Assembly: GCF_020618415.1 (NCBI RefSeq)
Contig: NZ_CP085344.1
Span: 829,001-893,000 of the forward strand
From: Cupriavidus sp. MP-37
GTDB taxonomy: Bacteria > Pseudomonadota > Gammaproteobacteria > Burkholderiales > Burkholderiaceae
Direction: 5' to 3'
Length of the DNA: 64,000 nt
Numbering within the stretch: the first letter of the stretch is position 1; the number at the start of each line of letters is the position of its first letter. The notes beneath the pieces are model-generated. The model saw nothing but the letters and a program-made list of their open reading frames with translations, had not been told where the DNA came from and did no database searches. A program made the translations under genes and the position numbers. Positions 34,516 to 50,480 of the stretch are shown piece after piece.

Positions 34516-35129
34516 TGACTGACATTTTCGGACTGGGCGACGCCCTTGCCGCCCGCGAAGAGCGCGGCGCCGGAGATGGCTGGCAGCGGGCTCAGCAGCA
34601 GGCCCAGAACCTATACGACAACGTGCTGATGATGCCGAGCCACGAGCTCATGCAAAAACTCCCGCCCGCGACCGTGCCCGTGGCCATGCCCACCGGTCCC
34701 GGTTGGAACGACGGCACCAGCGAGGGGGCCATGAACCTGTTCAAGACGGTGCGTCCGAACATCGTCCAGTCGATCCGCGCCTTCCGCGTGCCGGAACTGG
34801 CCCAGGCGGCGGCCGATCTCGGCCAGCATTTCCTCTATGCCAATTGCGCGCATTGCGCGAGCAAGGCGGAGATCCTGGAAACCATCGCCACCTCGTTCAC
34901 CTTCCCCAAGCATTTCGGCAAGAATTTCGACGCGCTGGCCGACTGCCTGACCGACATGATCTACAAGGCCGGCCCGCAGCCGGGTTTCGTGATCGTGCTG
35001 GAAGGCTTGCCGATTGCGCAGAAGTTCGACAAGGAAGCGCGCGAAGTGCTGCTCGACGTGTTCCGCGACGCCGCCGAGTTCTGGGGCGAGCGCAAGGTGC
35101 AGTTCCGCGTGTTCTATTCGTTCGCCTGA
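34512..35129 (+). CDS. Barstar-family ribonuclease inhibitor with a long N-terminal extension
   Basis: A 205-residue protein. Residues about 105-205 (CASKAEILETIATSFTFPKH, FGKNFDALADCLTDMI, GFVIVLEGLPIAQKF, FWGERKVQFRVFYSF) match barstar, which caps the active site of barnase-type RNases in the cytoplasm. The first 100 residues (including NLYDNVLMMPSHELMQKLPP) are an extension not present in the 90-residue classical barstar; its role is unknown. The ATG at 34512 overlaps the stop of the RNase gene (ATGATGA), coupling inhibitor to toxin synthesis. A strong terminator follows. Confidence 0.85.
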   Translation: MMTDIFGLGDALAAREERGAGDGWQRAQQQAQNLYDNVLMMPSHELMQKLPPATVPVAMPTGPGWNDGTSEGAMNLFKTVRPNIVQSIRAFRVPELAQAAADLGQHFLYANCAHCASKAEILETIATSFTFPKHFGKNFDALADCLTDMIYKAGPQPGFVIVLEGLPIAQKFDKEAREVLLDVFRDAAEFWGERKVQFRVFYSFA

Positions 35130-35220: not shown

Positions 35221-35380
35221 CCCTCTCCCGCCTGCGGGAGAGGGTTGGGGTGAGGGCAGGCGCGGGCCGAAGCCATCGTGCTGGAAAAAACCGTTTGCTT
35301 TGCCAAGGTCGGCTTTGGGAAAAAACCGCTGGCCCCGCTTCATGTGGTTCCTAGCTAGACCACCCCTCACCCCGACCCTT
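35221..35380. repeat. Left part of a composite extragenic palindrome, interrupted by the IS
   Basis: CCCTCTCCCGC, CT, GCGGGAGAGGG followed by TTGGGGTGAGGGC (35221-35257) is the left unit of the repeat family seen intact at 50357, 57480 and 60612. The inverted right unit starts at 35363 (CCCCTCACCCCGACCCT) and is cut at 35379; its remaining palindrome reappears beyond the IS at 36813. The unit spacing is larger here (about 105 bases) than in the other copies (about 45). Confidence 0.8.
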
Positions 35381-35395
35381 ATATGAACACCGCCC

Positions 35396-35659
35396 CGGTT
35401 GCAAGGTTTTGGAACCAGCTTGACGTCGCAGGATGGGGCTGCTGCCTTATATCCGGCCTGGAGCGAGTACTTGTTCTCGCGGGCCACAATGGAAGCTGCT
35501 GAGAACCGTCCTCAATCTCTCGCCACGGGCTTGTAAGCCGCTTGGGTTGGGGCAGGTTTGGGTTCCCACGGTCCTACCTGTTTCGTCATTGCTGTTTCTT
35601 GCCTGTGCAGCCGTGAAGGTTAATCAAGCGCTGGTTAAGGGAAGGTGATGCCCCCCGGC
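35396..35659 (-). ncRNA. Candidate guide (bridge/seek) RNA region of the IS1111-like element
   Basis: This 264-base non-coding stretch lies inside the element, between the transposase stop and the inverted repeat. In IS1111-subgroup elements the RNA that guides target choice is encoded on this side. It contains CCCCAACCC on the minus strand (35552-35544), identical to nine bases of the extragenic palindrome that the element targets. Open frames crossing it have no coding character. RNA ends and folding are not determined. Confidence 0.45.
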
Positions 35660-36682
35660 TCAGGCCGGGCGCAAGCTCACATGTCCGGGATCGTATTGGC
35701 GCCCATGGGCCATTAATGCCCAGGCTGTCCGGGCGATCTTGTTGGCCAGCGCCACGACCACCACGTTCTTGGGGCGCCGCTGCAGCATGGACAGTGCCCA
35801 GGCCGGCGGATGTTTGGTGCGCGTGAGCATCGTGCGTCCGGCGTTGACCAACTGTCGTCGCACGTAAGCGTCGCCGCGCTTGCTGATGTGACCGAGCCGT
35901 ACGTTGCCGCCCGTGCCGGTCTGCGCGGGAACCAGTCCCAGGCTTGCAGCGAAGGCTCTGCCTGAGCGGAAGGCCTGGGCACAGCCCATGGTCGCGACCA
36001 AGGCGGTGGCGGTAATGGGGCCGACGCCGGGAATCTTCTCCACGATCTGCGCGGCCGGATCAGACCTCAGCCATTCCTGGAGGTCACGCTCAACCAGTTG
36101 GATCTGTTCGTCGAGTTCGCGCAGCGCACAGACCTGCCGCTCCAGCGCGCGCATCAACAAGGGCGGTACGACCTGAGCGACCTCAGCCCAGCGCTGGCGC
36201 AGCTCGGCCCGGAAGGCCAGCCGCCCCGTGCGGAAGTGCAGGCCATATTCGCCCAGCAGCCCGCGCATCTGGTTGCTCTGCCGGGTGCGCGTCTTGACCA
36301 GCCCGTCCCGTATACGATGCAACGAGAGCACAGCCTGCTGCGCTTCGGTCTTGACCGACACGACCGGCATGTCGGGTTGCCGGGCTGCAGTCCAGATGGC
36401 TCGGGCGTCCGCCGCGTCGTTCTTGTTCGTACGCACGAAGGCGCGTACGTAACCCGGGTTGAGCAACACCACTTCGTGGCCAAGGCTCTGGATCTTGCGC
36501 GCCCACCAGTGGGCACCGCCACAGGCCTCCAGTGCGATCTGCCCAGGCTGGCAATTGGACAGGAATTCGATGAGCGCGGTGCGGCTGAATCGCCGGTTCT
36601 GGGGCTTCCCCGTAATGGGGTCTATCCAGTACATCTGGAACACTGTCTTTGCAATGTCCAGCCCATATGTCATAGCATTCAT
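35660..36682 (-). CDS. IS110-family transposase
   Basis: A 340-residue transposase starting MNAMTYGLDIAKTVFQMYWI. The N-terminal DEDD RuvC-like domain shows the catalytic Asp in GLDIAKT, Glu in LEACGGAHWWA and the NKNDAADARAIW motif; the C-terminal Transposase_20 domain has IPGVGPITATALVAT, GRAFAASLGLVPAQTGTGG and SKRGDAYVRRQLVNAGR, with the serine-region typical of IS110. It appears intact. I chose the ATG at 36682, though an upstream in-frame ATG at 36733 is possible. The element lies between the ribonuclease pair and the yidB-like gene. Confidence 0.92.
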   Translation of the reverse strand: MNAMTYGLDIAKTVFQMYWIDPITGKPQNRRFSRTALIEFLSNCQPGQIALEACGGAHWWARKIQSLGHEVVLLNPGYVRAFVRTNKNDAADARAIWTAARQPDMPVVSVKTEAQQAVLSLHRIRDGLVKTRTRQSNQMRGLLGEYGLHFRTGRLAFRAELRQRWAEVAQVVPPLLMRALERQVCALRELDEQIQLVERDLQEWLRSDPAAQIVEKIPGVGPITATALVATMGCAQAFRSGRAFAASLGLVPAQTGTGGNVRLGHISKRGDAYVRRQLVNAGRTMLTRTKHPPAWALSMLQRRPKNVVVVALANKIARTAWALMAHGRQYDPGHVSLRPA

Positions 36683-36812
36683 TTGGGCTCTCCTCGACCT
36701 TGAGTGTTGGATCGAACTTTCACTCTGGCACATCGATGCCGTCGGTCAAGCGAGAGCCCCTTTGTTTTCTAGGCCGCGGCCTGGCTTGGCGGTGGATGGG
36801 CGGTGTTCATTC

Positions 36813-36840
36813 CATCTCTCCCCATGAGGGGAGAGGGGGA
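36813..36840. repeat. Right remnant of the IS-interrupted extragenic palindrome
   Basis: CTCTCCCC-AT-GAGGGGAGAG plus GGGGA. Placed next to the left flank at 35379 it restores a CCCTCACCCC...CCCTCTCCCC palindrome half. The sequence from here to 36900 holds no gene. Confidence 0.7.
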
Positions 36841-36900: not shown

Positions 36901-37527
36901 CTACTCCTGCGCCGGCACATGGCCATGCGGCGTGAGCCGGTCGATCAGCTCCGGCAGGCCTTCGCTCAACTGCGCCGCGACGTCGTCCTGCGACATGCCG
37001 GTGCTCTGCGCCAGCGACTGCAGCGCGCCGGTGTCGTTCAGCGCATCGCTCAGCGCCGACGGCGTGACCGGCTGGTTGGCGCCGCTGCCGATCCACGAAT
37101 TGACCTGTTCACCGAGCCCGGCCTGCGCCAGGATCTGCTGCAGCGCGCCGATACCGCCGGCGGCCGCGCCCAGTGCCTGGCTGTTGGCTGGCGCGCCGCC
37201 CTGGCCGCCCAGCAGGCCGCCGAGCAGCGAGCCCAGGTCGAGTCCGCCGGTAGCCCCGCCCGGCGCGGCGCCGGCACCGCCGCCAAGCATGCCGCCCAGC
37301 AGCCCGCCGAGGCTGCCCAGCCCGCCCAGGCCATCATCGGACGCGGCCGCACCGCCGGCGGCATCGCCGCCTTGCGCGCGGCTGCGCATGGCCAGCGTTG
37401 CCAGCAGGCCGAGCGCAATCATCAGCTTGGGGTCGAGCCCGCCGGCCTGGCCGGCCTGGCCGTCCTCACCGCGCGCGCCGCCGAGCTGGCCGAGCACACC
37501 GCCCAGCACGCTATCGAGTAGTCCCAT
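36901..37527 (-). CDS. YidB-family (DUF937) protein
   Basis: A 208-residue protein starting MGLLDSVLGGVLGQLGGARG. The middle is a Gly/Leu/Ala-rich low-complexity stretch (GGLGSLGGLLGGMLGGG), and the C-terminal third (LAQAGLGEQVNSWIGSGANQ, MSQDDVAAQLSEGLPELIDR, LTPHGHVP) is the conserved YidB/DUF937 domain. Family function is unknown. The ATG at 37527 is preceded by AAGGAG. It lies downstream of rsmE on the same strand. Confidence 0.88.
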   Translation of the reverse strand: MGLLDSVLGGVLGQLGGARGEDGQAGQAGGLDPKLMIALGLLATLAMRSRAQGGDAAGGAAASDDGLGGLGSLGGLLGGMLGGGAGAAPGGATGGLDLGSLLGGLLGGQGGAPANSQALGAAAGGIGALQQILAQAGLGEQVNSWIGSGANQPVTPSALSDALNDTGALQSLAQSTGMSQDDVAAQLSEGLPELIDRLTPHGHVPAQE

Positions 37528-50356: not shown

Positions 50357-50480
50357 GCTCCCCTCTCCCGCTTGCGGGAGAGGGGCAGGGGGTGAGGGCA
50401 GGCGCTCGCAAACCGACGGCCGTACTTCGTAGAGATTCCCGCCCTCACCCCAACCCTCTCCCGCTCGCGGGAGAGGGAGA
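50357..50480. repeat. Composite extragenic palindrome, about 124 bp (holA-proA)
   Basis: Left unit CCCTCTCCCGC-TT-GCGGGAGAGGG followed by GGGTGAGGGC; about 45 bases later the inverted unit GCCCTCACCCC, AA, CCCTCTCCCGC-TC-GCGGGAGAGGG. The two units face each other like a BIME. The same arrangement and length recur at 57480 and 60612. Confidence 0.9.

Follow-up and report, generated by a model that had tools for sequence, protein, structure and literature searches.

The element at positions 35380–36817 of the 64,000-nucleotide stretch of Cupriavidus sp. MP-37 DNA analysed here (the window) is a complete IS1111-type insertion sequence, 1438 bp in length, with its transposase encoded on the − strand, as judged from its sequence and from a comparison of its copies. 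It is very probably an RNA-guided element whose insertion site is one particular arm of a REP-like palindrome, and the evidence points to a guide RNA in the non-coding region of the element rather than to recognition of the shape of the palindrome. This evidence consists of the ends of the element, the target usage of its 11 copies, the match between guide and target, the covariation of the two in relatives and the covariation within an RNA helix, all of which can be read from the sequences.

A perfect 13-bp subterminal inverted repeat is located near each end of the element, at 35383–35395 (right end) and 36798–36810 (left end), exactly where the original prediction had placed the repeats. 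This length is within the range of 7–17 bp described for the subterminal inverted repeats of the IS1111 group (PMC11208160). The intact transposase predicted between the repeats is a 357 aa protein encoded at 35660–36733 (− strand), with matches to the Pfam domains DEDD_Tnp_IS110 and Transposase_20. Its translation contains GLVPAQTGTG, which fits the GL-P----S/TG motif of the Transposase_20 domain, a trait of IS1111-group transposases (PMC11187229). According to the domain matches, the protein is apparently of the DEDD type, an assignment made at the level of Pfam domains and not of single catalytic residues. The longer non-coding region lies downstream of the transposase gene, as is usual in the IS1111 group; it measures 264 bp from the stop codon to the repeat (35396–35659), against 64 bp upstream of the gene (36734–36797).

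Outside the repeats, the element is extended by 7 bp at the left end (36811–36817; AGATGGA on the transposase strand, TCCATCT forward) and by 3 bp at the right end (35380–35382; ATA on the transposase strand, TAT forward). The 3-bp right extension is a feature of the IS1111 group, and ATA is found at this place in most of the relatives among those listed. A 7-bp left extension is also named for IS1111 elements (PMC11187229), and the two extensions, together with the absence of a target duplication, agree with the description of this group. On the transposase strand, all the copies read ...GGGAG / AGATGGA-ATGAACACCGCCC ... GGGCGGTGTTCAT-ATA / AGGG..., where the slash marks a junction; the flanks without the element read CCCTCACCCCGACCCT/CTCCCCATGAGGGGAGAGGGG, with no bases repeated and none missing. 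Since the flanks rejoin as an intact repeat without duplication when the element is taken away with both extensions, its limits are 35380 and 36817; the ends proposed originally, 35381 and 36813, are to be corrected to these positions, which follow the IS1111 convention. The left extension starts with two bases that repeat the AG of the target and that are also found as the first two beyond the right end; this shared AG dinucleotide is likely to be the exchange core. The junction of a circularised element would read TTGCAA, 15 bp, TATAAG (window 35380–35400 and 36805–36817), a possible promoter directed into the transposase gene. A similar outward box also exists in the inserted state, because the target too starts with AG.

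The window element interrupts one palindrome of an inverted pair. The left half of the interrupted arm, CCCTCACCCCGACCCT, is located at 35364–35379 and the right half, CTCCCCATGAGGGGAGAGGGGG, at 36818–36839; the partner palindrome, CCCTCTCCCGC..GCGGGAGAGGG with the tail TTGGGGTGAGGG, is REP-like, intact and unoccupied (35221–35256). A strict-pattern search of the genome to which the window belongs (G000; 6.11 Mb, two contigs) also recovered this partner as an intact target at G000:C1:864236. Three further intact repeat pairs are found in the window near 50377/50442, 57499/57564 and 60632/60698, and they account for the three additional occurrences of the repeat family that had been claimed. 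The strict target pattern has 127 matches in the genome, compared with none for a reversed control pattern, and, by visual inspection, most of the 30 places shown out of the 127 have inverted pairs. Many palindrome copies, often arranged in inverted pairs, are a trait of REP/REPIN sequences, and the 127 strict matches agree with it. The RAYT trait of REP/REPIN sequences was not found, the repeat core being absent from the 3.3-kb locus (L202) of the one Y1_Tnp (RAYT-like) gene found in the genome (G000:C1:558152–558415). The genes on either side of the window copy are Barstar-like (end at 35129) and YidB-like (36901–37527), and both are directed towards the element. This is the only copy for which an extragenic position is clear; an ORF check of the 11 sites gave no decisive answer in this GC-rich genome.

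Altogether, 11 full-length, near-identical copies were found in the genome, in a search that scored 40 of 132 first-look candidates and may miss short fragments. Of the 13 occurrences of the end motif, 11 are at the copies; the two extra places were rejected as copies, as they have no similarity to the element. The search for further copies at the same position of the palindrome, proposed with the original prediction, gave a uniform answer: all 11 copies found occupy the identical base of the identical arm, in identical orientation. The left half CCCTCACCCCGACCCT, with small variants allowed, adjoins every copy; the right neighbour is AGGGTTGGGG at nine copies, AGGGTCGGGG at the window copy and AGGGCTGGGTG at copy L009. 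Copy L001 is the same as the window copy; a single-base difference separates seven copies from these two, and the remaining two are one base shorter. The copies L001–L011 fall into near-identical types (C at position 24, T at position 24, and a form shorter by one base), which suggests a recent expansion.

The outer flanks and spacers vary among the 11 copies, while the insertion sequence is nearly identical; the copies are, therefore, separate insertions. This variation speaks against the alternative that the copies travelled with the repeat pair, through mobilisation of the repeats or recombination between them, and did not insert into existing repeats. Empty sites in relatives bear on the same question. 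The L007 and L001 loci were used as queries against ten related genomes, and 12 loci were read for each. Genome G023 keeps an uninterrupted arm between matching flanks at the L007 locus, and genome G056 does so at the L001 locus. In the L007 place, genome G018 has a repeat pair of which one arm is a variant; in the remaining readable loci the repeats are shorter, different or absent, and L218 shows only one flank. What the spread of repeat and element as one unit has in its favour is the window locus, where the palindrome was found between the Barstar-like and YidB-like genes in none of the 15 readable relatives (in 12 of the 15 also by pattern) and where repeat and insertion sequence could have come together. 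This count excludes L162, which runs into other sequence, and 13 further loci (L168–L177 and L179–L181). Given the separate flanks and the two intact arms, such joint spread is improbable in the extreme, and the insertion of an IS1111-like element into a palindrome, as originally interpreted, is supported by 11 of 11 copies and the two uninterrupted arms. The comparison with strains lacking the insertion, also proposed originally, was productive at these two other loci and uninformative at the window locus, which provides no empty-site test because the relatives have no repeat there. The lack of the repeat pair in the 15 relatives means, therefore, that the pair itself was gained or lost at that place; such pairs of repeats come and go among closely related species (window 35221–36839).

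The stem of the palindrome is symmetric and a mirror site is also on offer, which none of the 11 copies uses. On the used side of the stem, the genome has 76 exact sites, compared with 108 on the opposite side. If all the sites were equal, the chance of finding 11 of 11 copies on one side would be roughly 6e-5, a rough figure in that the patterns for the two sides are not of equal length and variants make up two of the 11 used sites. Reading of the hairpin shape or sequence of the palindrome by the transposase itself, with no RNA guide, would account for the palindrome being the target in all 11 copies, and IS elements of other families are also described as targeting REPs (PMC1525189). However, this is very unlikely in view of the unused mirror site and of relatives with related transposases, which have different targets, each matching the non-coding segments of its own element. 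The RR positions of the target are AA in 64, GG in 21, AG in 10 and GA in five places (a hand count of 100 of the 127), and the 11 insertions have AA in nine cases, GA in one and an irregular sequence in one, a distribution that fits the guide and is not statistically significant.

The predicted right-side guide (T segment), CCCCAACCC, is located at 35544–35552 on the − strand (read 35552–35544) and is complementary to the target GGGTTGGGG. The predicted left-side guide (B segment), GAGAGAT, is located at 35515–35521 on the − strand (read 35521–35515) and equals the left junction GAG/AG+AT. In this sequence, GAG/AG belongs to the target and AT to the element, whose next bases these are, so that the segment corresponds to the left junction in its occupied state. 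The T segment precedes the B segment in the 5′ to 3′ direction of the predicted RNA; in seekRNA, similarly, the top-strand match is described as lying 5′ of the bottom-strand match (PMC11187229). Both this order and the downstream position of the published seekRNA agree with the window element (PMC11187229). The guide of the window copy matches its own target in eight of nine positions (A opposite C), and that of the L009 copy in about seven of nine; these imperfect target sites may have been altered after insertion. The left segment of relative L190, AGAGATG, matches part of its left half only.

Relatives of the element were collected by a genome-contig search (80 of 125 found) and from 60 genomes of the genus, including G000. 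The 140 loci examined, some of which represent the same element twice and two of which are element-free, yielded 70 rows, 54 distinct elements (three of them copies of the window element) and, after removal of similar targets, 34 elements. Rows were dropped where there was no detectable inverted repeat (45 listed), where the repeat motif was not that of the family or where the end distance was outside 200–345 nt; degraded relatives in G056, G054, G055, G032 and G023 have no readable guide or ends. With no position imposed, 34 of the 54 elements have their best flank match at a distance of 159–178 nt from the right end; among the 34 elements with dissimilar targets, 17 do so. The guide score is 6.82 of 8 for an element's own target and 4.81 for swapped targets (34 elements), and none of 20,000 re-pairings reaches it, in a position range picked after the best-match positions had been viewed. 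When the whole non-coding region is used, with no chosen position, the result is again 0 of 20,000, compared with 1403, 3022 and 5671 of 20,000 for the reversed-flank control. Depending on the scored length, the own target is not the best-scoring one in six to ten of the 34 elements. The left segment also covaries with the target (one of six versions of the test gave 26 of 20,000 and the other five gave none, on separate non-redundant sets of 7 to 30 elements), and exact runs of up to 12 nt extend across the left junction in relatives. The core dinucleotide is identical at both ends in 46 of the 54 elements and unlike in eight, and lineages differ in their core; by the left end, it is AG in 18, AA in 10, GA in eight, TG in seven, CG in seven, CA in two, GG in one and TA in one. 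Wrongly placed ends are perhaps responsible for some of the core mismatches and for some of the own targets that do not score best.

The alignment of relatives reveals a conserved outer RNA helix, with GGGAACC (35561–35567, − strand) on its 5′ side and GGTTCTC (35501–35507, − strand) on its 3′ side, and an inner hairpin between the two guide segments, GGCTTACAAGCC (35528–35539, − strand). The outer helix encloses both guide segments and shows compensatory changes; 240 of 252 cells are paired, with 26 pair types, in an alignment of 36 elements of at least 45% protein identity from which the misaligned row L134 was left out. When the helix is slid by 1–3 columns, 61–109 of the 252 cells are paired, although these controls lean in favour of the helix, which was derived from the same alignment on which it was counted. 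The RNA structure is visible only in the alignment of relatives. The folding of the RNA of the window element alone, in three pieces, was no better than that of shuffled sequences (z −0.46, +0.99 and −0.40), and an Rfam search around the element gave sub-threshold matches only, with no family at its gathering score.

The window element fits the published seekRNA/bridge-RNA mechanism. By analogy with the published relatives, the non-coding sequence that extends from the transposase stop codon to the right end would give rise to an RNA, which would be bound to the transposase and would fold so as to present two short segments. In the right target half, the segment CCCCAACCC would pair with the top strand (GGGTTGGGG); the partner of GAGAGAT would be the bottom strand over the left half, the AG core and the first bases of the element. 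The DEDD transposase would then recombine at the 2-bp AG core, in one orientation and with no target duplication, and a circular intermediate would be used.

A relative with 75% identity, the same element in G014 and in the Cupriavidus lacunae record NZ_QKWJ01000001.1, occupies the mirror position of the stem. The tail side of the stem, GCGGGAG/AGGGTTGGGG, is where the window element enters, and the C. lacunae element enters from the head side, GCGGGAG/AGGGGAGCAAACC; the guide of the latter, TGCTCCCCT, has nine bases complementary to the head side AGGGGAGCAAACC. Two partial relatives are also found on the C. lacunae side, L185, in which a deletion has removed or altered the guide region, and L199, which is truncated at the end of a contig and has only its left flank to show its position; the side switch is represented by one element with a complete guide. 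It seems rather probable that Cupriavidus IS1111 relatives share out the sides of one REP-like palindrome by exchanging guide segments. If so, a small change in the guide would flip both side and orientation on a symmetric target, with the left half and the cut point unchanged.

More distant relatives in G019 (65% identity) are located at GGGG/AGGACGTCAA or AGGATGTCAA and have the guides TGACGTCC or TGACATCC; the match between guide and target is exact in L187 and L184 and has one mismatch in L189. The G019 loci L184, L187, L188 and L230 sit 10 bp before the point where their right flanks (AGGACGTCAA or AGGATGTCAA) diverge. A TnpB-type gene (Pfam OrfB_IS605) adjoins one of them (L187/L230), L184 has the same left flank, and the TnpB likeness of L188 was judged by eye only. 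The G019 insertion site resembles the right end of an IS200/IS605-type element, and the guides match it.

The window element provides a clean, multi-copy natural case of what is very probably RNA-guided insertion, in which guide, target, core and RNA fold are readable from sequence. Its relatives are natural guide–target pairs on which rules for guide boundaries and for tolerated mismatches can be tested; the palindrome illustrates a way in which an element may switch side while its cut site is kept. For annotation, the ends of the element are fixed and one class of interrupted Cupriavidus repeats is explained. Among the open-licence papers listed (titles and the beginnings of abstracts), no report on the window element was found, in Cupriavidus or among IS1111 guide-RNA/palindrome targets.

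The targeting of REPs by IS110-family elements, stated in the original prediction with family and target named correctly and no mechanism given, is already published for ISPa11, ISPpu9, ISPpu10 and IS621 (PMC1525189, PMC8450116), and the RNA-guide mechanism was published in 2024 (PMC11187229, PMC11208160). ISPa11 of Pseudomonas aeruginosa resembles the window element in belonging to the IS1111 family and in having a REP target; all six of its six copies are described as lying in REPs, all in one strand (PMC1525189), and its seekRNA was co-purified with its transposase (PMC11187229). The two elements differ in host, REP sequence and guide, and the seekRNA is measured in ISPa11 and predicted here. 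IS621 of Escherichia coli, described as a DEDD recombinase with a bridge RNA (PMC11208160), shares with the window element a recombinase of this type, a guide RNA (predicted here) and a REP target, and the window transposase has a distant sequence match to 8wt6 over residues 207–349. Unlike the window element, IS621 belongs to the IS110 group, which is described as usually having the RNA in the left end and very short end repeats.

ISPpu9 and ISPpu10 of Pseudomonas putida KT2440 are each reported at one REP position in seven of seven copies (PMC1525189), and ISPpu9 leaves an AG repeat, reminiscent of the AG core of the window element. These two share their REP position, whereas the two Cupriavidus relatives take opposite sides of the same stem. 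ISEc11 and ISXne4 are described as having close transposases and different targets that match changed guide segments (PMC11187229), so that guide segments and targets change together, as in the Cupriavidus relatives. However, the targets of ISEc11 and ISXne4 share only three of 13 bp, while the Cupriavidus switch is between the two sides of one palindrome; the side switch of the C. lacunae relative is the freshest point in comparison with the known mechanism.
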